From Tridacna crocea (taxonomy: Eukaryota; Mollusca; Bivalvia; Cardiida; Cardiidae): 64,000 bases of DNA. Under the pieces are notes generated by a model that saw only the letters and a program-made list of their open reading frames with translations, had not been told where the DNA came from and searched no databases. Shown one piece after another: positions 7,701 through 60,300 of the stretch. The stretch is from NCBI GenBank assembly GCA_943736015.1, contig OX031063.1, positions 43,478,672 through 43,542,671 on the forward strand, given 5' to 3'. The stretch's first letter is position 1. Every line of letters starts with the position of its first letter. The translations under genes were made by a program, and so were the position numbers.

Positions 7701-10700
7701 AATGGCACCACTCATAGGTATAATCATGTGTGTACGCACTTTCTGTCGTTTATTGAAGTTGAAATTGACCACGGCGTATGCAGCCTCAAGATGATTCGCA
7801 ACCGTTCCTGGAAAATGAGATAATGGTAAACTGCTGACATGTTCTGTCTGTGTTCAAATTGGATGTACATGTATTTACAGACGGCAAAATAAATATGAAA
7901 CGAAAAACATAGTGGGAAAAGGATCAAATGTTGGTGACCAGCGTTTCCCCCATTATCCAAACTGTTTCCAAAAATCCTTTTCTTTAAGGCTTTTTGTGAC
8001 CCTGAAATAGAAGCCTTTTGAAAACATCGTGGGAAGTGGAGAAAATGATTGTAACCAGTATTTTCTCCTTTTCCCACAATGTTTTCTACCCTGCTGGAAA
8101 CAAATTTCAAGTATTCAGTTACGTTTATTTTGTCGTCTGCAAATGCTTTCAATTTGGACCAGTCTAAAATTTCTGTCGTTTGTTATAGGGTTAAACTCAA
8201 GATTGTTTGGCAAAGAATAAACAAAACAAAAGTTTCTTTGCTTTCTTCCTTCAAACAATGAGTGCAGGTGGGCTCTGTATGTAAGCTTGCGGATGAGTAG
8301 ATGCAGATTCGATAATAAATATCTTCGCCTGTTCTCAAAATTGTAGTCTCGCTTATATCGAAAACATTTTCAGACCACAAACCAGGTATGGTTCATGTCA
8401 TGGCATTCCTCTCTCAAAGTGGCTGGTTATCAAGCGTTTCCTCACTTTCTGGCAATGTTTTCAAATGCCTTCTTTTTCAGATTTCTACAAACCTAAAATG
8501 GATCTATAAACGGTCTATGGTTGAGTCTTGAACGGAATTCGACATAGAAAAAACAATGGGACACCTTACTATGGTACTCGGGTTGAATGTTCGTCATCAA
8601 AAGAAAGGAGAATAAGTGAATTAACACTTTCTTGGATATTAGCGCCTTCTAACGTCTCTGAGGTAAATTGCTTTTGGAAACATTGTTACAAATGTAGAAA
8701 TCGTTCGACATTGAAAGTTATCGTCGCTTTTTTTCATTTTTTCTCAGCTATCTTTGATATCTGAGTTTAATGCGAGGGCTTTTTCCACTCCAGCAGTCTT
8801 GAGACTGAAAAAGTCTCAAAGTTCAAATGGAAATCTGTTAACCTTGTAAAAGTGTAAGGAGTGAAGAACGGAAAAAAAAAATGATCTATTTGTCCGGTTT
8901 TTTTTTTTTATGTCCAGGTATCTATCTCAAAACTGCTGTTGCTTGTCGTTTCTGGTGGCTTCAGAAACTGAAGGTTTACAGTACTATATGGCCTGCAACA
9001 CGCGAAAAGGGACATTTTGACATTTGCGTAAAGTGTCGTTTCGGATCAGCCTGGGCAGTCCGCGCAGGCTAATCCGAAACGACACATTCCGTTTTTATGT
9101 AATTTTCTGTTTTGCGCAAGTCTACTGAAGAAAAAAAAACTAACGTAGTCGTAAATTGCCGTCTCGGATTAGCCTGCGCGGACTGCGCAGGCTGATCCGA
9201 GACGACACTTTACGCAAATGTCCGAATGCCCCTTTTCGCGTGTTGCACTCCAATTATTATAAGGCACACGAGGGTAACGTATACACCGACCATTCTTAAG
9301 GGCATTCTTAGTGCTATTTTCCAAGATAAACAGTCATAAGTTCTGTAACTTTAATATTAATAATTCTTAGAGAATAAGGCTGAACGTTCCCAAGTCCGTA
9401 AGATATGATGCGTGGTTTAACCCTTTACTAAACAATCCCTGGTTTTTACGCCCATAAAAGAGAAGCCTTTTGAAAACATTGTGGGAAAAGGAGAAAATGC
9501 TGGCAACCAGCATTTTCTCCTTTTCCCACAATGTTTTCTACGCTGTCAGAAACGAATTTCAGTTTTTGAGTTATGTTTATATTGTCGTCTGCTTGTGCTT
9601 TCAATTTGGACCAGTCTATCATTTTGTCGTTTGCGAAAGGGTTAGCTTCTCTTACAGGCAAAATCATTAAATCGGGATAAGATTCCCTGCCGGCCGTCCT
9701 AGGTTTTGTAGGACTGTCTTTTATAAAGACACCCACAACCCCATCTCTTTCAACGTTTTTTAAAATCGCAGCATCTTTGTCGATCTTTTTTGTCAGCTAG
9801 ATCTATATTCTATATCAGGACAATGACCGGGAAACAAAGGGTACCACCTTTGAGCCTAAAAAACAAATTTGACTCGCTTTGCAACAAATAGGAAGAGGCG
9901 ACTTCACATGAAGTTCTACTGTAACAACCTTCCAAATCTACATCCGCTTTTATGGGGATAAAAGGTACTACTGGCTATTACATCTGAACTATGGCCTTGC
10001 AAAAGAGAGTTTGGTGCATCTCTTGGTGCATAGTACTAGCAGTCATAAATGTTCACAATGTTAAAATTCCGTTACAATAATTGCCATTAGTAATACAAAA
10101 TAAATCGCTTTTCGAAACTTCCTTGTGTGTCAAGGTTTTATATTTGCACAGGCATTATCTAATTATTGTGGCGCCGCCTGAAGCGGCGGCACTATATTTT
10201 TATTCGGTTTTATAAAGTGCCTATGGAGGCAGCCATATTGAACTGGTTCCATGCTTTCTTTAAACATCCATCTATATCTACTGTACTTTGATTACCAGAT
10301 CTGGGTCCATATTAACTTTTTTTATCTATTTGTGGGATTTTTTTTAATATATAATAATTATATTGTACTTTCATCGTTAGAAGGATGAAAAACCCGGATT
10401 GTAGACACATCAACATTTTCCTTTCGAAAAATAATAATAAAGATCCATTTCGAAAAATAAGTCACGTGATAAAAGATTATCTGTCACAAATTTTCTAAGC
10501 CGCCATTTTAAATATCTTACCCTGGAAAAAGGTTAAGAGATATTTTCAAGCTCTTTGACCCTAGAGAACCCTATGTGGTACTTGTGACCCCCATTATATT
10601 TTTGTTCCAGTGTTGTATGGATTGCAGAAATATTGTTTTCCTATCGCGATCGTGTTTTTAAGACCAGCTAACTGTAACTAGGTCAATGTTTGAGCGGGTG

Positions 10701-13700
10701 ACAGATCGGTCCCCCTAAACACAGAACCTTACCGAATCTAAGTTTTGTTTGGGCAATAATGTGTTTGTATGACATTAAAAAGTATATTTTCTATTTCACA
10801 AACAGTTTGATAGTTATAATTGGACAGAAAATATAGCCATTTGTGATACATGACAAAATATTTTGACCCTATTGTTCAAACAAACCTAAAAACTCGCGTG
10901 ACTGTTCATTCATTGCCGACAAATGTCCGTTTGTGTAGACAAAATCTTACAAGGGCGACGATTTTCTCCACATATATATACTATAGTGAATGTTAAATGT
11001 GACAAAATGAGTCAGGTGATCAACAATATGATTCCTACTGAGCTGTTAACCCTTTACCACACAATCCCTGCTTTTGACGCCTCTGAGAAAGAAGCCTTCA
11101 GAAAACATTGTGGAAAATGGAGAAAATGCTGGTAACCAGTATTTTCTCCTTTTCCCACAATGTTTTCTACCCTTCACAAGACAAATTTCAATTTTTCAGT
11201 CACTTTTATTTTGTCGTCTGCAAATGCTTTCGCTTTGGACAGTCGTAAAATTTTGTCGTTTGATAATGAGTTAAACGATCACGTGATTTTCATAAACGGT
11301 TTCACGCGGTGGTCCAATGCATTGTGCCCTGTTACAGAAATAAGTGGTTTGATGTTCAGCATCAATATTTTCTTGTATTTCTTTTAATTGCGGGGCAAAC
11401 CACTGTGAGAGGAATTCCAAACTGTAAATCGATTATTGAAGATTTGCACTATCAATCAACGCTAGATCCAAATTCATTGCTATAAACAGTTTTCTTTTTT
11501 GGATAGAGTAGAACAATATTAGACTGCACAAAATGTGCGGTCTGATCTCATATATATACACACTGTTCTTCGCCAATATCGATATCACGCAATGATAACA
11601 GATACATTCTATACAATAACAGACTGAACCCTGTAGTAGAATGTTCCTTGACATGCAAATAATTGGCGAAGAGCAAAAAGTTTCGATTCATGTCAGCCTG
11701 CGCGGACAGCGTAGGTTGACATGAACCGATACTTTTTGCAGGTGTATTGAGCCCACTTTGCACAGAGCATAACTCCTATATGGAGTGCAACACGCGAAAA
11801 GGGTCATTCGGACATTTGCGTAAAGTGTCGTCTCGGATCAGCGTGTGCAGTCCATGCAGGCTAATCCGAAACGACACTTTCCGATTTTATGTGATTTTCT
11901 GTTTCACGCAAGTCTACTGTAGCACAAAATCTAATGTAGTCGTAAAGTGCCGTCTCGGATTAGCCTGCGCGGACTGCGCAGGCTAATCCGAGACGACACT
12001 TTACGCAAATGTCCGAATGCACCTTTTCGCGTGTTGCACTCCATATATCTTTACAGAAAAAAAATCTTTTGGTTACCTGGATAATATAAGCCATCTCTCT
12101 TGTTGCAGGCAATCACTCGAACCCCGACCATATCGTCTGTATTTTCGAGACTTTTATCCGAAACTACACTTCCGGTTTCATCAACTTCCGGTTGGTCCTC
12201 CTCGGCTTTCTTGGATTTGGTTGGTCCTTTATCTCTTCCTTTGATTGCAAGTTTGTAAGTTTGAGATCGCAAAACGGGTACCTGGAAAAAGAAAATGTAA
12301 AAATGACGAAAAGTGAAATAAAAATCTGCAGGTCATTTTTGTGCACTTCAAGACTAAGACAGATGTCTGTTCTTAACGGAATAGAGTTTTCACTTCATAC
12401 ATATAGCATTACAATATCTTTAAGTAGTAGGAATTGTCATCTTACCACAATTTCTCTGGAGACACTTATGCTGGAACATCACTCAAAGTGTTGTCCACCA
12501 CTACTTATTCGTACTGTTCAATGCTACTAATGTTTTTGTGGTATTTGTCGAAGACAATACCACTATGAGTTCAAGATTGAATTTTGATATCCATGTATCT
12601 TATTTTGTGCAAAGCCGAAGGAAATAAACCCACTTAAACTCATTTTTTCTCAGGCAAACGTGTTTTTCGGTAGCACACAGATATGTAATTTAAAATGGCA
12701 TTTTAAAATACATTGGGCGAGGCCATCGATCGTTGAGATACTTATTTTTGATTGAAAATAGCTTCTCTCGCTCATAGCCTTTTATTGGCGCAATGATACA
12801 AATTTGCCTACTGACCCTGGGCTTTTTCGTTCCAAAACCAATTCGTTCCACGGCTTGTTCGTCCTATGATTGCACGCTACTCCATTTGATTGCAAATGAA
12901 TATTTATAGATCGAAGTACCGGTAATTGATTGTAATGTTGGAAATTAAATGTAAAAGGTTAAAGATATTTCAAAATTATAGTTTTAAGGTACATGAGCAC
13001 GTTCCCTTCAACCAAAAGGTATTCATTTGACTAGTGGGTTGACCTTTAAGCCAATATTTGAACAATATGTCTCTTTTTCTTTCAAACTATTAATTCCACG
13101 CAATGGGTTTCCTTGACAAATACCACTTCAGCGTTCTCAACGCTTTGATTTTACCTATCTATGCTATACAAGCCTTTAGTTATGAAGGCAACACGTGCAA
13201 GAGACATACACGCAAAAAGGAATATATTTAGAAACTTTTCTTCGGATACACGCGTAACATAATGTTCAAGTACGTGGATATCTCAACGCAAGATTGAGGC
13301 GAAGCTAAAGACAAAAGTGAAGAAATACCAACGGGTGGAGACCTTGTACTAACCCATTACCACACAATCCCTACTTTTGACGCCCCTGAGAAAGAAACCT
13401 TTTGAAAACACTATAGGAAAAGGAGAAAATGCTGGTAACCAGCATTTTCTCCTTTTCCCACAGTGTTTTCTACCTTTCCCAGAACAAATTTCAATTTTTC
13501 AGTCACCTTTCTTTTGTCGTCTGCAAATGCTTTCATTTTGAACCAGTCTAAAATTTTGTCGTTTGGTAATGAGTTGACTCTTTCAGCATAATAGGCGAAA
13601 ACCGGCTTGTGTGGACGGCATGAGTCAATATCCCACTGTACAGAATGTGCAGTCAGGGTCCGTTTTCTTCAACCATTCCTAAGAACCTTTGTCGCATTCT

Positions 13701-16700
13701 GCAAGATTTTCTGACTGTGAAAGTAACAGAACTTCTGATTGGCTACAACAAAATGGTTTAGCCAATCAGAAGTGGTCTGTTACTTTCTCATTGACGAAAT
13801 TCTGAAGAATAAGACTGAGAATGTTCTTAAGAATGGTTGTTGAATACAGACGCAGATCTTTGATCTAAAGTGTCAAGGCAATAAGTATGATATCAAAAAA
13901 AAGAGCAGCTTTTAGAGTTTCAATGGACTGTCACGTGATGTTATATTTAGCTGCCAAAAGAAGTCGAGTGAATATCTATTGCTCAGAGAGTAAATATAGA
14001 TAAAAAAAATAAATTGTACAATCAAAATATAAGTAAAAAGTTACCTTTTTAAAAGTCAATATCAGCAGTTTTAGGGAATAATTTCTCAAAAGAAAATAAA
14101 ATGTACAAAAAATATTTTCCGAAAAAAAGAACTAATTGACATTGTTTTCACAAATGTATGAAAACAATGCAAAGAAATAATCCATTTAGAACACTAAACT
14201 TTGAAAGCATATCGAATTCTTTTCCGAAAAGGACCTGATATACAAAAGTTTTCACAATTTACAAAGCAATGCATTAATCCAATTACAATAAACAGGCGCT
14301 ATCGAATAACACAAACTATACACGTAATACCAACAATACACAGACGAGATTAACAACCAAGATAAGACTGGAAAAGATTTATGATATTTCTAATCCTGTA
14401 CGTCAAAATATAAACTTTTTACTAGGCATCTACAGAAACAGACAGAAAAAAATATTGTGGCAAAGGGAGAATTTTCTTGTTTTTTCCCTGACTGAAACAA
14501 TCTAGTATTAAATGACTCTTGAGGAATAAAGCACTTGAAAACATTGTAGGAAAAGAAGAAAATGCTGGTAACCAGCATTTTCTCCTTTCCCACAATGTTT
14601 TCTAACCTTCCATAAGTAAATCTCATAATATAAGCCATGTCACGTTTGTTTTCTGTAACCATTGTTTCCGAACTATTCATCCCTTGGTTTAATGTCTATA
14701 CGCCACTGGTAGCTCTACCGGACTTTGGTTACGATATATGGCAGAAACAGACAGAGAAAAAGAGCATGTTGGCGGTTCAATGTGAGATAGATACGGTAAG
14801 TAACTATAGAAAAATATAGTGTAGGGAAACACCTAGACTGGTTACCGCCCCTGATACTACTACGTGTATAGTAATACACGGTATACAACGGTGGCCAGTT
14901 CAGGAAACACCCTTACATGTATTTGGACCCTGCCACACCATTTTTCCAAAATATTCAAATATTTCAACCCTGTGCCACACAATTCCGAGTTTTAAAGACT
15001 TTCGGGAAAAGGCATTTGAAAAGATTCGGGAAAAAAAAGAAAATGCTTTAACTCATTACCACATGACAAAACTTTAAGTTTGTCCGAATCGAAAGCATTT
15101 GCAGAGGACAAAATAAAAATGACTGAAAATTTGAAATATGTTTTGTGAAGGGTAGAAAACATTGTGGGAAAAGGAGAAAATGCTGGTTACCAGCATTTTC
15201 TCCTTTTCCCACAATGTTTTCAAAAGGCTTCTTTTCCAGGGGTGTCAAAAGTAGGTTGTTATGGGAGACCACTCCTTCCTGCATGGCATACTCCCGATTT
15301 AAATACAATACCTGGCTACTGCGTCAGAGAGATATCTCTTTGGCTCAGTGGTTAGGGTATTGGCTTTGCGTCCGGGAGTTCGGAGTTCGAATCCCGCTCC
15401 GATCCTTATTTCTGCCATGCATTTATTCATTTGTTTCTTTGTTACGGACTTCGTTCGTAAGATGGGGGCTCGTCCAGGATTGGCCATTGAGCCATTAGTC
15501 CCATTTGTTGTCCAAAATCGGACTTCCTGCCTAATAAGGCTTTGAGTCATCAATAAAATGATGACTTTAAGAGGGGGTGTGTTATGGGAGACCACTCCTT
15601 CCTGCATGGCATACTCCCGATTTAAATACAATACCTGGCTACTGCGTCAGAGAGATATCTCTTTGGCTCAGTGGTTAGGGTATTGGCTTTGCGTCCGGGA
15701 GTTCGGAGTTCGAATCCCGCTCCGATCCTTATTTCTGCCATGCATTTATTCATTTGTTTCTTTGTTACGGACTTCGTTCGTAAGAAGGTATTGAGTGGTA
15801 ATGGGTTAACGAGAAGTTTCTTCTAACAAGTTGTTTTCATGCTTTCTAGGGACAGGTTTTAGTATTTTAGTATTGTGTTTCAGTCATCTGCGAATGCTTT
15901 CAAAATTAACCCAATACCACAGAAGCCTTACCTTTGACAACCCTGAGAAAGAAACCCTTTGAAAATATTATGGGAAAAGAAGAAAATGCTGGTAGCCAGC
16001 ATTTTCTTTTTTCCCCCACAATGTTTTCTACCCTTCACAAAACAAATTTCAACTTTTCAGTCACTTTAAGTTTTATTTTGTCGTCTGCAACTGCTTCCAA
16101 TTTGGACTAGTCTAAAATTTTGTCGTGTGGTAAAGAGTTAAACACGTGTAAAATTAAGGGTTTAATTATCTATTGATCAATGCATTATACCCATAAATGT
16201 TGCAAAATAAAAAAGAAAATACAACAGGACACCTTACGTTTGATTCCAGTAGATTATCAAGTCCACGGTAGAATAACACTATTACACATATATGTTTATA
16301 GTGCACTCAACACTAGTTTAAACATATTCATTTTACATCGACTGAGAAACAAGTTCTTACAACTTATGCTAATCTCCCTCGATTCTGCTTCCTTGGTACT
16401 ACACCAGTACTCGCGCCGAATGTGTGGGCCACTGAAAAATTCAAAACTTGATGCCTGATCCCAGGTCTCGAACTCAGGACCTTATGGTTACGAGGCCAAC
16501 GCTCTACCTCACAACCATGGACACCACACAACATTTTTTCATATATATCTTTAATACTGCACTATACGATAATTCAAAAAAAATATTATCTTAATCCATT
16601 ACCACACAATCCCTACTTTTGACGCCCCTGAGAAAGAAGGCTGTAGAAAACATTGTGGGAAAAGGAGAAAATGCTGGTAACCAGCATTTTCTCCTTTTCC

Positions 16701-19700
16701 CACAATGTTTTCTACCCTTCACAAGACAAATTTTAAATTTTCAGTCACTTTTATTTTGTCGTCTGCAATTGCTTTCGATTTGGACAATCCTAAAATTTTG
16801 TCGTTAGGTAATGAGTTAAACCGATGCAACACATACTTAACTTATCCCTACAAGATCCAAGGTCATATATCATCGGTTTAATTCAAAAACCTCGTAACTA
16901 CAGCTTGGTTCAAGCTGTAGTTACGAGGTTTTTGTAAAAAACCGACAATATGATGCCTGTTACCTTCTGTATATTCACATACATACTTATCAATCACTAG
17001 ATCGTACAAAAAAATCCATTATAAACATTTTGAGGCAGAAAAACGGAATATTTACAATTTCAATACCGTTTTTCACCAAAATAATATTATTATACTTAGG
17101 ATAGTAGACAAGAGAGACCCTAGATCACTCTACACATTCAGTTACGTCTGATCTTGATCTAAACTGTCTGAAAAAACGCATACATTTATCCTTTGTATTA
17201 TAGAGGTTAAACTCATACTTATTTATAAATAAATCTCTTCGATAAAACAACACTTAACGTTTCAGCAGACAATCCTATCACAGGAACCTGAACAAGAAGG
17301 CCCTTGAAAGCATTGTGAGAAATTGGGAAAATGCTGGTAAGCATCATTTTCTCCTTTTCTCACATTGTTTTCTATTCTTTCAAAGACAGAAAACCCTATA
17401 CGTGAACCATTCATATTTTTCATGTTGAAAATACTTTCAGTTTGCTCAAGACCAACATTTTTTTGGTTGTTGTTGTTTGGTTAAGTGTTAAACCTTAACC
17501 TTCTCAGTCAGTAGTAAATTGAAACTTTCAAACTGATGGTGAAACCCCAAATTTCAGTATCTCAAGTTATTTTTTTTCAGGACATTTATCTCTTTATCGG
17601 ACAGTGTAGATTCAAGATCAGACTGCACGTTCTGTGCAGTCTGATCTTGAATCTACAATGTCCGATAAAGGTTCTTGAGTCCCACACAGCAGCCTGAAGG
17701 CGAATGGAGAGCAGGTATAACGCAATATTGAGGCCAGTCAATAGTCATCAATATTTCAACCCTCCGGGTTTGCTATCAACATGGTCAATCTACGAGAGAC
17801 AAATCCTGTCGCAATATAAAACTGTTTTTCACAGAACGTAACCCTTTATTAAGACAGCCTGGGCCCATATTCACGAACCATTCTTGAGAATATTCTTAGT
17901 CTTATTCTCAAAGGTTTTCTACAATTTCTGATTGGCTAAACCGAATGGTTCCATTGTATACATATAAATTCATCAGTATGAATGCATCTATAATGTATCC
18001 GGAATCATACGAGCGTATTTCCTTTTTCTTTCATTTTTATTACCTTTACTATGTTAAATTGAAACCGTTAAACAGTAACAAAACATGTTTTCCTCGGTTT
18101 GCCAAGATTCTTGCCATAAATTATAGCCCATTGCAGAGATGTATGGTGAGACAACTCTCCTCGGAGATTGGTCGATGGCTAGCCGCAATTTAATGAACTG
18201 CATTTTCTATCAGTCGCAATCTGTGCAACCTTGCAACCGTCAGGGGCAACATTTGGCAGGAAGATACAATATGTTTGATATTTCATAAAATAAAGAGAAC
18301 TTTGGTTAAAAAATGGATGAAAACGAGTAACGATGCATCTTTAAAAAGTTGTTCACAATATTAAGATTCCGTTACAATAATTGCCATTAGTATTAAAAAA
18401 TAAATCGCTATTCGAAACGTCCTTGTGTGTCAAGGTTTTATATTTGCACAGGTATTATCTAATTATTTTTCTTTTCATTTGCGGGGCAAACCACTGTGAG
18501 AGGAATTCCAAACTGTAAATCGATTATTGAAGATTTGCACTATCAATCAACGCTAGATCCAAATTCATTGCTATAAACAGATTTCTTTTCGGATAGAGTG
18601 GAACAAGATTAGACTGCACAAAATGTGTGGTCTGATCTCATATATATACACACTGTTCTTCGCCAATATCAATATTTGGACGAAACACTCATCAGAATGT
18701 AGTAATTAAGTAGGCTGATTAAATTGAGAAGAAAATATATAAGCTATGCTCCGGCAAAAGGGAGCTTAACGCCTTACTCCGTAATACCAATCAAGCCATG
18801 ACAGAATTCTGGATCTTTAATAGATACTTTTTAACGACCAACTAATCATGCGGTACACTGGTCCTTTCTCATACAGAAAATTTACCAATAGCGAAAAGTT
18901 TCGACCCAGGTCAGCCTGCGCGGACTGCGCAGGCTAACCTGGGTCGATACTTTTCGCTGATGCATTAAGGTAGTGGACCCGTAATACTACTAGAGCAGCA
19001 AGGCATAAAATTTCTTGACAGTTGATAAAGACAGATTTATACAGATATTATACTTTTGCATGGTTTTAACCAACCAGAAATTCCTTTAATGTCTCTCTTG
19101 AAATTATTTGTTGATACTTCTGTTAGTTTCCAGAAAAGGGAGGTAATTATCATATCCATTTGTAATGAGAATATAGTGGTTTTAGATTTATAAATGATAA
19201 TTCTAGGAAGGACAAAAATGAAAAAGTGGCTTGGTGAAAGTAGTACAATATTACTCATTTTTAATCTTAGCAAATTTTGTAGGATAATAATATAGTGGAA
19301 ATAGCTGTTTTCTATTACGGGACTACTACGTTAACGTCCCTTTTCACAGAGCATGGTTCGCAGGGTCTTTAAGGTCACAGGGAAACAGTGTTAAATAGTG
19401 AAGGTGGTCAAGCTGGAAAAGACGTTTTCTTTCATTGTGTCAACTTATTTTATCCGAAAATGAAACACACTGGAAAATCAAATATGTGTAAACAGTAGCC
19501 AATAGAAAACATTGTGGTAAATCAATAAACTGCTTATTGTGTCTAGGCCCTCCACGTGTCAAAATATTTTCAAACATGATTTGGTCAAAGTAATTTAAAA
19601 TCGCGTGAAGGAGGGGAGAGTTGACTTAACACGCTTATTCATAACTCTTTACCAGACAACAATAGTCTGATTTCTTTTTCACATGGAGAGCATTTTGAGA

Positions 19701-22700
19701 GAAGAAATTAATTTATTTACTCTTGTTTACATTCTGACCAGAAGTTTCCTAAACCAAAACTAAGCACAATCCTCGAAATGAAATTCGCCGACTTGGGAAG
19801 TCGAACCTAACTGAAAGCAACAGACTCAATGTGGCTTAAGTGGTTGAACATTGATTTGCCTTTGAAGTAGTAAAAAAAAAAACAAGGGAAATTTGAAAAA
19901 ATGGTGTTTACCAGCCTTTTTTTTCCTCCTTGTCCTGACATGCTTTCAAAACCTAGCTTCCTCAGGACCGTTACCCATTAGGCTGTTGAGCCAGACTAAA
20001 GTACCGTTTCCGGACAGTGTAAATCAAGACCAGACTGTACAGAATGTGCAGTCTGACCTTCGATCCAAAATATCCGTAAACACGGCGGGGAATCACGTGA
20101 CACAACAACAACAACAATGACCGTTATTTGAAAAAATTCCCCGACTTCAGGTAAGAAAATCTTCAATAATTCCGTCAATACATGACCGATTGGAATTTGG
20201 TTTGAAGCAGAGAAGGCGAAAGGAGTCCGGGGATTTGTTTGGTGTGTTAGATTTTTTAAACAACACCTGATAAAAAAGTTATTGACGAGCAAACAAATTA
20301 TCCAGGGTAAAAAATTTGTTTGCTCGTCAATAACTTTTTTATCAGGTGTTGTTTAAAAAATCTAACACATCAAGCAAATCCCTGGAGTCCTTCCGCCTTC
20401 TCTGCTTCAAATCAAATTCCAATCGGTCATGTATTAACGGAATTATTGAAGATTTTCTTACCTGAAGTCGGGGATTTTTTTCAAATAACGGTCATTGTTG
20501 TTGTTGTTGTGTCACGTGATTCCCGGCCGTGGTAAAGATGATATCTTTCGCCAAAAATGACAAAACAAAAATTTCTGTCTTTACTTTCGGCTTTAAAGTT
20601 ATTTTAGCCTACTTCGCAGGTTACGGGATTGTTTACTAAATATATGGTCACGAGTGTATGTATACTATTACTCTCAGATGATAATTTTAGCCTTTATTGA
20701 CATACACAACATAACAAAACAAACACATAAAGGATAAAACAGGTAAAATGCATTGCTTCATTACATTGACAGCAGGTATTTAACCCTTTACCCCATCAGG
20801 CATTTCTATGGTATCTTTAATTGACCATAAATAAGAGCAAGGATAAAGCCGTTTCTTCTGTGTATATGACACCTTTTGATAGTGTAGAAAACATTGTGGC
20901 AAAAGGTAAAATTGCTCGTGACGAGCAATTTCAGCTTTTGCCACAATGTTTTCCAAAGGCTCCTACAAGCAATGCGTAGAAATGAGTATCTATGGAGTAA
21001 AGGATTAAGTTGTGAGGAATACCTGTTACCCCTATAATTATGAAGTCAGTCGACCCTAAAAAGACACTGCTATCGTCTGAGAGTAATATATACATGTATG
21101 TTGGTAGTTAAGGAACAACAATACATTGTAGCACTACAAATAATCATTTTGTATACGTATAATTTACCGAAATGATTCGTCCTTCAATGTTTTTTAATAT
21201 TATTTCAGATATTCCGACGCGGCATTCCTAGGAGCAAGTACTTAAAACAGGTAATAATTGCTCTTAGCACTTCACTGCGGGCCACCGTGGCTCAGTCGGC
21301 TATATACAAGACTTGAATCCTTGGGGTACAAGACTTGAATCCTTGGGGTACAAGACTTGAATCTCTGGGGTACAAGACTTGAATCCTTGGGTACAAGACT
21401 TGAATCCTTGGGGTACAAGACTTGAATCATTGGGGTACAAGACTTGAATCATTGGGGTACAAGACTTGAATCCTTGGGGTACAAGACTTGAATCCTTAGG
21501 GTACAAGACTTGAATCCTTGGGATACAAGACTTGAATCCTTTGGGTACAAGACTTGAATCCTTGGGGTATAAGACTTGAATCTCTGGGGTACAAGACTTG
21601 AATCTCTGGGTTACAAAACTTGAATCCTTGGGGTACAAGACTTGAATTCTTGGGGTACAAGACTTGAATCTCTGGGTTACAAGACTTGAATCCTTGGGGA
21701 ACAAGACTTGAATCTCTGGGGTACAAGACTTGAATCCTTGGAGTCGCAAGGATCGATGATAGTCATTGTGACATAATGCATTCCTCTCTCACAGCCTATT
21801 AACCCATACTCTGCTAAATAATTAACTCATTACCATACAACAACATTTTAGGCTTGTCCAAATCAAAAGCATTTGCAGACCACAAAATAAAAGTGACTGT
21901 AAACTTGAAATTTGTTTTGTGAAAGGCAGAAAACATTGTGGGAAAAGGAGAAAATGCTGGTTACCAGCATTTTCTCCTTTCCCACAATGTTTTCCAAAGG
22001 CCTCTTTCTCAGGGTTGTCAAAAGTAGGGATTGTGTGGTAATGGGCTAAAATAAAATTTTCAGTTCGATATTTATAACCCAAATATTGCTGTTTCAAAGT
22101 TATGTTTTAGGGAATCATACATCCTTATCGGACAATGTAGACCTAAGTTCAGACTGCACATCTGATCTTGATATACATTGTCCGCAGATGGTCAGTTAGT
22201 AGCCACTAGCAGCCAAAGGGATGTATTTCGTATTGAGGCGTGCTTAGCAGCAGATAGATTTAAAAGTCTAACTCTAAACATGTCATTTTATTTGTTTTTC
22301 AACTTATTCAGTATCTGTCTTCCAATGTTTCCTTCGGAAAACATGAATTACTTCATGTGTTACCGACACACACTTTTTTTTTCAGTTTGTACGACCATAT
22401 TATCTATATGCCTATGAAAATGTTTGTATTTTATGCCAAATAAAGATTATGTCATGTTATGTTATGTTATGTTATGTTATGTTATGTTATCTTATGTTGT
22501 GTTATGTCGTGTTTTGACGATGGTTATGTGACCATTTCTTCATGGATCAAAATGTTTCAGAAAATCCAAAGTTCACTTGTAAAAAGCTAAAAAAATTAAA
22601 AACATTACATTGCGGTAAAAGAAAAATAATAAAAGTGATTTTGAAATAACGAAACATTTATTTTACCTTGAGATCAAAGATCCTGTATATATTTTTAGCC

Positions 22701-30900: not shown

Positions 30901-31128
30901 TTAACCCATTACCACACAATCCCTACTTTTGACGACCCTGAGAAAAAAGCTTTTAGAAAACATTATGGGAAAAGGAGAAAATGCTGGTAACCAGCATTTT
31001 CTCCTTTTCCCACAATGTTTTCTACCCTTCACAAAACAAATTTTAAATTTTCAGTTACTTTTATTTTGTTGTCTGCAAATGCTTTTGATTTGACAAGCCA
31101 AAAATATTGTCGTTTGGTAATGAGTTAA
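30901..31128 (+). mobile_element. TTAA palindromic MITE
   Basis: Full length with TTAA at both ends. Confidence 0.88.
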
Positions 31129-35216: not shown

Positions 35217-35734
35217 CTATATGGGTCGCACCATGGGAAAAGAGACATTCGGACATCTGCGTAAAGTGTCGTCTCGGATCAGCCTGCGCAATCTGCGCAG
35301 GCTAATCCGAGACGGCACTTTACGACTTCATTAGATTTTCTGCTACAACAGACTCGTGCAAAACTGAAAATCACACAGAAACGGAAAATTTCGTTTCGGA
35401 TTAGCCTGTGCGGACTGCGCAGGCTGATCCGAGACGGCACTTTACGCAAATGTCCGAATACCTCTCTTCGCGTGTTGCAGGCGAAAAGAGGCATTCGGAC
35501 ATCTGCGTAAAGTGCCGTCTCGGATCAGCCTGCGCAGTCCGCACAGGCTAATCCGAAACAACACTTTCCGTTTTTATGTAATTTTCTGTTTTGCATAGGT
35601 CTACTGTAGCGCAAAATCTAATGCAATCGTAAAGTGCCGTCTCGGATTAGCCTGCGCGGACTGCGCAGGCTGATCCGAGACGACACTTTACGCAGATGTC
35701 TGACTGTCCCTTTTCGCGTGTTGCACACCATATA
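35217..35734. mobile_element. Two GC-palindrome MITEs fused in tandem
   Basis: 35217-35480 and 35478-35734. The second lacks its first bases and starts directly from GTGTTGCAGG of the first. Confidence 0.8.
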
Positions 35735-44960: not shown

Positions 44961-45233
44961 ATATATGGCTTGTAACATGCGAAAAGGGGCATTTCGACAT
45001 TTGCGTAAAGTGACGTCTTTGGATCAGCCCGCGCAGTTCGCACAGGCTAATCCGAAATGACAATTTCCACTTATATGTAATTTTCTGTTTTGTGCAAGTC
45101 AATTGAAGAACAAAATACAACGTCGACATAAAGTGCCATCTCGGATTAGCCTGCGCGGACTGCGCAGGCTGATCCGAGACAACACTTTAAGCAGATATCA
45201 GAATGCCCCTTTTCACGTGTTGCAGGCCATATT
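44961..45233. mobile_element. GC-palindrome MITE
   Basis: Both ends and both inner palindromes present, with scattered changes. Confidence 0.8.
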
Positions 45234-57386: not shown

Positions 57387-60300
57387 CTTTACATAGAAAT
57401 ATTAAGAAAGAATACAAATTAATAACTTAACTCATTACCAAATAACAAAATATTAAGTTTGTCCAATCGAAAGACTTTGCAGAGGACAAAATAAGAGTAA
57501 ATGTAAATTTGAAATTTGTTTTGTGAAGGGTAGAAAACATTGTGAGAAAAGGAGAAATGCTGGTTATCAGCATTTTCTCCTTTTCCCAAAATGTTTTCTA
57601 AAGGTTTCTTTCTCAGGGTGGTCAAAAGTAGGGATTGTGTGGTAATGCATATAGGTTAATACTAGTATTAGCCCTTTACCAAACAGCAGAATTTTAGACT
57701 GGTCCAATTTGACAGCACTTGCAGACAATAAATTAAACATAACTCAAAAATTGAAATTTTTTTGTTTCTAGCAGGGTAGAAAACATTGTGGGAAAAGGAC
57801 AAAATGCTGGTTACCAGCATTTTCTCCTTTTCCCTCAATGTTTTCAAAGGCTTTCTTTCTCAGAAAGTCGTTAAAAGTCAGGATTGTGTGGTAAAGTGTC
57901 AAACTAATTATATAAAAATCAAATTTTAGACTTGTCAAAATTGAAAGCATTTACAGAGGCAGATTCAATTTGTCTAAAATCATGCCCTTGAAAAGGCAAA
58001 TATTGTGTTAAGAGAATATTTCTGATTATTATTAAAATGATAAGATTATTTTGTTAAGAATTAAAACATCTCAACTTACTCTTCAGCTCTGACCTCATCT
58101 GGAATGGCCTCCCATACCATGAAGTCCAGGCGCCTGTAGCATGAAAATTTTGACTTATTATCTATTTACTAGACAACAACAATTTGGGGCAGTCCATTAT
58201 AAAAGCATTTGCAGATGACAGCTAAAATCTGGTAGTAACGATATGATCTGTCTTTGAAAAGGGGAGAAATCAATGTGGGAAAAGTAGAAAATGCTGCTTA
58301 CCAGCATCTTCTCCTATTTCTACAAAGTTTTCGCAAGGCTTCCCTCTCTCGGTTATGAATTCTTTCATTATAGATTTATGAAAAAAAGTCTTCTGTGAAG
58401 GAAACGGAAAACAATATTGTAACTTGGAAATGCCCGGTTCATTCCCAAGCGGCAGTGCTTGTATTGTCAGAGAGCCCTTTGGCAAAACTCTTCTGAGCCT
58501 CAGCCTAGTAGTGATGGAGTAGTACAAACAATGCATAAATTACTGTATTGTCACTGTGATCTGTCTGAAATACTGTTGAAAGAAGCATAAAACACAATTC
58601 AAACCAAACAAAAGGAGTGATATCTTGTAATTTAGTTCAATTTTTTCTTACAATTGAAAGCATTTGCAGACAACAAAATAAATGTGACCCAAAAATTTCA
58701 TTTTGTTCAGGGAATGTAAGAAAACATTATGGAAAAAGGAGAAAATGCTGGTTGCCAACATTTTCTCGTTTTCCAAAAATGTTTTCAAAAGCTTTCTTTT
58801 CCAGCATTTTCTAGCATTTTCTCTTTTGGCCACAATGTTTTCATATGCTGTCTGTCTCAGGGTCATTAAAACACAGGATTATGTAGCAAAGGGCTTAACC
58901 CATTACCACACAATCCCAACTTTAACACCCCTATAAAAGAAGCCTTTTGAAAACATTGTGGGAAAAGGAGAAAATGCTGGTAACCAGCATTTTCTCCTTT
59001 TCCCACAATATTTTCATGCTTTCAAAGTCAGAAATCATCATATCAACAAGGTTTAATTTGTCTGTAGATGCTTTGAATTTGGTCCGGTCCAAAAAAAAAT
59101 GTCATTTGGTAAAGAGTTAAATATTAAACCAGACGCTCAAACTTTACACGTGTAAACATTGAGAGAATTATTTTGCAGACAATTAAATACCGTAAGTGTG
59201 CCTTTAAAAGTTTTGTTCAGAAGGATAACACACATTGCTAGAAAAGAAGAAAGTCCTAGTCACTGTTTCAGAGGCTTTCTTCCCCTGAGTCTTTAACCCT
59301 TTACCACACAATGATGACTTTTAACAATCCTGAGAAAGAAGCCTTTTGCAAACATTGTGGGAAAAGGACAAAATGCTGGCAACCAGCATTTTCTCCTTTT
59401 CCCACAATATTTTCTACCCTTCACAAAACAAATTTCAAATTTTCAGTCACTTTTATTTTGTTGTCTGCAAATGCTTTTAACTTGGACAAGCTTACAATTT
59501 TGTTGTTTGGTAATGGGTTGACTCTTTACCAAATGGCAAAGTTTTGGACTAGTCCAAGTTGAAAGCATTTGCAGATGACAAAATAAATGTGAATCAAAAA
59601 TTGAATTTTGAATTGGAAATGGTAGAAAACATTGTGGGAAAAGGAGAAAATGCTGGTAACCAACATTTTCTCCTTTTCTCACTATGTTTTCAAAGGCTTT
59701 CTTTCTCAGGGTTGTCAAAAGTCAGGATTGTGTGGTAAAGAGTTACAGAAGAAAGTCCTAGTAAATGTTTCATAGGCTTTCTTCTACTGGTCTTTAATTC
59801 TATAAATATGTGGCAAAGGAGTAAGTAAAGAGAAAATGAAAGCAAACCATGAAAGAAAACTCTAAAATTTACCGTTTAATTTTATCAATAGCTTTCTGCA
59901 GTCTCTCCTCATAGGCCTTCAGGTTGACACCATTTGGATTGATCAGTTTTATTGACTTTTTGTTTGTGCTCGACACATGGGCAATTGGAAGTACCTGTAA
60001 AACATGGCTATAAAATGATCAGCATGTTGAAATTTTTTTGGCCATTAGTTTTTTTTTACTTTTATAAAACTCCCCTAGTTTCCCCTCTTCCACCCCCCCC
60101 CCCTCCCCTTCCCCACAGGTCCACTTAGTAAGAGAAACAAAACAACAGATAAGAAAAATGAAAAACACTTGTTGATCTACATGTAAGCAACTACAGCATT
60201 CTCAGGAAAACACATTAAGGTCCTTTAACTCTTTACGAAACAACATAATTATAGACTGGTCCAAACTAAATGTGACTCAAAAATTGAAATTTGCTTTGGC

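Follow-up and report, generated by a model that had tools for sequence, protein, structure and literature searches.

A young Helenus-type TRIM family with a putative tRNA-like pol III promoter in the giant clam Tridacna crocea

We have found a complete mini-retrotransposon with long terminal repeats (LTRs) in the giant clam Tridacna crocea. It lies at positions 15257–15785 of the window, by which we mean the whole stretch of 64,000 nucleotides that was analysed. It has a length of 529 bp and it is a real, well-formed and recently active element. Taken as a whole it is best explained as a young TRIM of the Helenus type (TRIMp3), with a tRNA-like pol III promoter and transposed in trans by machinery of the LTR type; we give this reading a probability of about 80%. 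That the transposition is of the LTR type leaves hardly any doubt. That pol III is the main transcriber of the element is a fairly probable conclusion, drawn from its letters.

The two LTRs, which like all other features of the element are given on the forward strand, are identical: the exact repeat extends over 206 bp, from 15257 to 15462 and from 15580 to 15785, with ends TGTTA...TAAGA. Between them there is a non-coding interior of 117 bp (15463–15579). It starts with a primer binding site for tRNA-Pro and finishes with the polypurine tract AGAGGGGGTG (15570–15579), directly before the 3' LTR. All these parts, together with a target duplication AGGT, had been listed in the initial annotation and are confirmed, the repeats by exact extension. 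The interior also contains an AATAAA (15552–15557), which precedes the 3' LTR by 22 bases. In the LTR there is a TATA-like sequence TTTAAATA (15298–15305), 36–43 bases upstream of the A box described below, which may have a promoter role. The window has a G+C content of 36.2%; for the genome of T. derasa 36.5% has been published (PMC11490831). No second copy of the element was found within its 64 kb, and Pfam gave nothing above its cut-offs in five of the 14 longest open frames of the window. An open frame of 162 amino acids on the reverse strand (21300–21788) is composed of short repeats (IQVLYPKDSSLVPQGFKSC and similar units) and is probably a non-coding satellite.

The primer binding site (15463–15481) follows the 5' LTR directly; 18 of its 19 bases are complementary to the 3' end of tRNA-Pro(AGG) with its CCA. 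In most of the close copies of the element, 58 out of 65, all 19 bases agree; the match is 18/19 in six copies, including that of the window, and in one further copy. The tRNA-Pro(AGG) gene is present in the same genome: its 3' end matches six places, and ARAGORN calls the gene at both of the two places which were fetched. The LTR has a tRNA-like head of its own, but this fits the primer site in 10 of 19 bases at best and is therefore not the primer.

The duplicated AGGT is found on both sides of the element, at 15253–15256 and 15786–15789. Its insertion has interrupted a foldback repeat with TTAA ends, the left part of which is at 15048–15256 and the right part at 15790–15808. Without the 533 inserted bases this host repeat has a length of 228 bp, and the TRIM lies near its right end. 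The same site is found uninterrupted at 11 other places in the window; these empty paralogous sites read AGGG, while the site of the TRIM reads AGGT. The foldback repeat is a feature of the region in its own right. With a length of roughly 228 bp and the core GGGAAAAGGAGAAAATGCTGG, it has matches in 60 intervals (for example 9417–9644, 11045–11275, 16591–16820, 30901–31128 and 58895–59121), which amount to 13.3 kb or 21% of the length of the window. It has the appearance of a very dense MITE family with TTAA as its target.

The element is very abundant in the genome, for which we have searched an assembly of 1.049 Gb in 31 contigs, 18 of them with 40 to 77 Mb. The COX1 protein encoded on its 29-kb contig C31 agrees with a giant-clam host: it has 96% identity, along its whole length, to a cluster named Tridacna derasa, and the match that follows, from the cockles (Lymnocardiinae), has 81%. 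A segment of 30 bases from the promoter region of the LTR gives 3,591 matches with up to two mismatches, and the reversed control gives none. The junction of LTR and primer site gives 2,216 matches at the same threshold, again with no match for the control; the two counts use different patterns, and the junction pattern may also catch the sister family described below. From 68 loci taken up we obtained a set of 65 close copies, after two with fewer than two full LTRs (L053 and L060) and one which is the same locus as L074 (L075) had been dropped. The window copy (L048) and a duplicate of L015 (L054) had been left out beforehand. As the 65 copies were chosen from the loci most similar to the window copy or to its interior, counts of closeness favour the window copy. 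Perfect 4-bp duplications flank 63 of them, the exceptions being L023 and L062, and the duplicated sequence differs at most places. The two LTRs are identical in 34 of the 65 copies, with a mean divergence of 0.65%. Five copies (L042, L065, L069, L072 and L074) are arrays of the form LTR-interior-LTR-interior-LTR. The polypurine tract has the same letters in 62 of the 65 copies. The AATAAA is found at its place in the interior in 64 of them; their 130 LTRs do not contain it. The duplications and the near identity of the LTRs indicate that the family is young and has spread by LTR-type integration.

Each LTR contains a pair of sequences which resemble the internal promoter of tRNA genes. In the 5' LTR the A box TGGCTCAGTGG (15341–15351) fits TRGYNNANNNG without mismatches, and the B box AGTTCGAATCC (15384–15394) is one base away from GGTTCGANTCC, which are the sequences that we take to be the consensus of both boxes. 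The same letters are found in the 3' LTR, TGGCTCAGTGG at 15664–15674 and AGTTCGAATCC at 15707–15717. The starts of the A and B boxes are 43 nt apart, and in class I tRNA genes this distance is also near 43. When the whole window was scanned on both strands for an exact A box and a B box with up to one mismatch, 30–60 nt apart, only two pairs appeared, one in each LTR; 400 dinucleotide shuffles gave a mean of 0.04 pairs and a maximum of one. The A box is present in 129 of the 130 LTRs of the close copies and so is the B box, in a set whose members had been chosen because they resemble the whole element or its interior. Loss of the boxes from most copies, which would have spoken against the design, is thus not what we find among them. 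None of the 11 sites of the A box differs in three or more of the 130 LTRs, as compared with 23 of the 206 sites of the complete LTR. The B box has A instead of G as its first base in 123 out of 129 LTRs, the other six having GGTTC.

The tRNA-like A and B boxes given in the initial annotation stand, and they go well beyond what shuffled sequences give, with one limit: the region is not recognisable as a tRNA. ARAGORN finds no tRNA gene in the region of the TRIM, though the same program finds the tRNA-Pro of the genome, and the tRNA model of Rfam has no match to the tRNA-like region of the LTR. The predicted RNA fold of this stretch is no better than that of shuffled sequences (z −0.04). Given these blank searches and a folding at the level of shuffles, the tRNA-like region, if it works, would be a promoter rather than a tRNA. 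The 5S model of Rfam gives no match at the gathering score in the window, and none up to E=10 in positions 15200–15850.

The proposed cycle would begin with the A and B boxes of the 5' LTR, which would recruit TFIIIC. Pol III would start some 10–20 bases upstream of the A box, a distance known from tRNA genes, would pass through an element free of TTTT, and would stop at the first T run of the flanking DNA. Then tRNA-Pro would prime the synthesis of the minus strand, the first cDNA would be transferred to the corresponding stretch in the 3' LTR of the RNA, and the synthesis of the plus strand would begin at the polypurine tract. Finally an integrase of the Gypsy type, acting in trans, would insert the new copy and leave a 4-bp duplication. 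A pol III transcript can only be the template if it runs on through what remains of the 5' LTR, then through the interior and finally through most of the 3' LTR. TTTT is absent from all 65 close copies, which agrees with such a passage. Its absence from the unit of 323 bases is expected in 0.6% of dinucleotide shuffles, which have a mean of 4.7 TTTT, and in 6.5% of mononucleotide shuffles; 42 out of 1,257 slices of 323 bases from the window are free of it. Downstream of the element the first TTTT is found at 4–282 bases in 62 of the 65 copies; the other three have none within 300 bases.

An older sister family allows a comparison of the promoter region. It was found through one pattern of the primer site, CATGGGGGCTCGTCCGGGAT, which we had used in the search for a coding partner (a longer match of the primer is TGGGGGCTCGTCCGGGATTTG). 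The four loci obtained in this way as partner candidates, L096, L097, L098 and L099, are all diverged relatives of the TRIM, with no open frame above 129 amino acids in the three forward frames of the 3 kb which were fetched. L098 has the short promoter type in an older form, the other three have a long type. Matches of these four loci to microRNA families of Rfam were set aside, as the foldback repeat is the source of at least a part of them. A follow-up search (4,621 first-look candidates, 40 of them scored, with at least 70 matches) gave 44 long sister matches, 16 of which were fetched; with L099 they make 17 aligned loci, each represented by one LTR in the identity values.

The sister family and the family of the window share the ends of the LTR, the primer site, the interior and the sequence that precedes the A box. 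The difference between them begins immediately behind the A box and continues beyond the B box. The distance between the boxes is 61–65 in 25 of the 26 sister pairs found and 56 in the other one, compared with 43 in the window family. At least one LTR with a pair of boxes (exact A box, B box with up to two mismatches) is present in 16 of the 17 loci, and GGTTC is present in 21 of the 26 detected B boxes. In the 17 loci the identity to the window copy is 97% for the A box and 93% for the nine bases before it, followed by the interior (89%), the polypurine tract (87%), the B box (86%), the primer site (84%), LTR positions 1–75 (83.5%) and the LTR end (81%); it falls to 73% between the boxes and to 64% after the B box. 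The A box thus appears as the best-kept part, and the B box as kept better than its surroundings but not than the interior. Only the A box stands out clearly, because the B box is below both the interior and the nine bases before the A box. In four sister loci (L102, L107, L111 and L112) we have observed that the longer tRNA-like head contains a hairpin-like sequence, CCTCGAAAAACGAGG, as if derived from a tRNA whose variable arm is long. The change of segment between both families may be due to recombination, to a template switch or to the capture of another tRNA-like head. One could go further and imagine that the giant-clam TRIM has swapped its promoter segment, on an unchanged backbone of LTR ends, primer site, interior and first tRNA-like part, for a shorter one with class I spacing and without T runs, which would have allowed pol III to pass the whole element and set off the recent burst; we consider this history unlikely.

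The sister family also provides arguments for a different transcriber. In this case pol II would transcribe the element from its TATA-like box, and the tRNA-like stretch would be a relic of a SINE or of a tRNA fragment which no longer drives transcription. The TATA-like TTTAAATA is present in the right-hand LTR of 14 of the 17 sister loci, and its position before the A box would suit pol II or pol III alike. TTTT is found between the positions of the boxes, also in 14 of the 17 loci; it should stop pol III early, yet the sister family has spread. Three explanations are conceivable: the sister family used pol II, a short T run in this position stops pol III only weakly, or the transcription of these copies was poor. 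The failure of the tRNA models, ARAGORN and Rfam, and the deviating first base of most B boxes also count against pol III. On the other hand the boxes are kept better between families than the sequence between and after them, with the A box above every measured part, and the 65 young elements lack any TTTT. Furthermore the sole AATAAA precedes the 3' LTR, and cleavage of a pol II transcript at this place would leave out the full repeated end. Transcription by pol II with a relic promoter is possible but doubtful in our opinion.

The remaining explanations do not reach that level. A SINE, or a pair of tRNA-like repeats without LTR-type transposition, would account for the A and B boxes and for the short length. 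This reading is extremely improbable and is refuted by the structure of the 65 close copies, which have two full LTRs as well as primer site and polypurine tract, lack a perfect 4-bp duplication in two cases only and include five LTR-interior arrays. An assembly or segmental duplication at this place, suspected because both repeats are identical, has practically no chance of being correct, since the TRIM interrupts a foldback repeat with empty paralogues, the promoter segment and the junction have thousands of matches elsewhere in the genome and the 4-bp duplications vary from place to place.

The preferred reading of a Helenus-type TRIM mobilised in trans implies a coding partner. We have also searched for it through the interior, taking 30 loci from 740 first-look candidates, 40 of which were scored. 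All 30 loci, that of the window included, adjoin the LTR of the TRIM itself, and 28 of them lie between two full LTRs. Of the other two, L053 has a full LTR on one side only and L060 has one LTR truncated and partly inverted. No coding partner was found among these 30 loci or the four loci of the primer pattern, and thus no partner which shares the interior is present among the 30. This result counts against the preferred reading.

The initial annotation was right in assigning the element to the TRIMs, in placing it in a bivalve and in comparing it with Cassandra. It was also not aware of a described bivalve element of this design, a point which has to be corrected: according to the report by Kojima in 2024 (PMC10886601), TRIMs with tRNA-like LTRs, called Helenus, are found in fungi, animals and plants, with 51 bivalve families in Pteriomorphia, and TRIMp3 is used there as an umbrella term. 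Helenus is also treated in a meeting report (PMC12859917). As described in PMC10886601, Helenus elements have a length of 311–1263 bp, no coding capacity and 4-bp duplications in animals. In bivalves their primers are tRNA-Lys, His, Ile, Pro, Glu or Ser. Gypsy elements with the same type of primer are considered their likely partners, and their transcription by pol III was proposed and left unproven. Their similarity to tRNA was examined with Censor against tRNAs and SINEs, and their B box is given with GGTTC (PMC10886601).

The clam TRIM agrees with this description in its two LTRs and in its length of 529 bp, within the Helenus range. It has A and B boxes in the LTR, the latter one base off GGTTC, a primer site for a tRNA 3' end (here tRNA-Pro) adjoining the 5' LTR, a polypurine tract which closes the interior, 4-bp duplications and no coding capacity. 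Tandem copies are also common to both, in a zebrafish family in that report and in 5 of 65 copies here (PMC10886601). It is therefore of the Helenus type, matched to the described features of the Helenus families and not letter by letter. The host is different: the table of molluscan hosts in PMC10886601 contains only Pteriomorphia, while the clam belongs to Heterodonta. To our knowledge, as far as the literature was searched, no Helenus of a heterodont has been published.

Heterodonts, including the cockle Cerastoderma edule, do have another element, biv-TRIM, according to the description by Satovic et al. in 2019 (PMC6934838) as far as consulted here. It is also a bivalve TRIM with solo and tandem forms, and its terminal repeats of 202–218 bp are comparable to the 206 bp of the clam LTR. 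However, biv-TRIM has an interior of 77–80 bp, compared with 117 bp in the clam, a polypurine tract GGGGAGA in most cases and no clear primer site, and its conserved TGATCCCAAAGGAC is absent from the clam TRIM within three mismatches (PMC6934838). Membership in biv-TRIM is excluded by the length of the interior, the polypurine tract and the missing TGATCCCAAAGGAC. The scan with TGATCCCAAAGGAC gave 13 hits in the window, against a shuffle mean of 5.6. Eight of the 13 belong to a motif TGATCCGA(A/G)ACGAC, which with near variants is found on both strands at 9035–9206, 11827–11875, 35268–35281, 35671–35684 and 45048–45061, and is probably another dispersed repeat. Cassandra of plants and Ajax of nemerteans, as presented in PMC10886601, also have the promoter of a small RNA in the LTRs of a TRIM; theirs is a 5S rRNA sequence, whereas that of the clam is tRNA-like. 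Membership in Cassandra is excluded, as the clam TRIM has no 5S match in Rfam.

A TRIM with a tRNA-like LTR was thus already known; the heterodont member, the sister family with another B-box segment and the young elements free of TTTT are the additions made here. Elements of the Helenus type extend from Pteriomorphia to heterodont bivalves, judging from the host table available in print. The proposed origin of Helenus in the ancestor of Pteriomorphia may therefore be too narrow, or else horizontal transfer or a second origin have to be considered. The young and the old family, with different promoter segments on one backbone, offer a natural comparison for the use of pol III, and together they scatter pol III-like promoters by the thousand over an animal genome.
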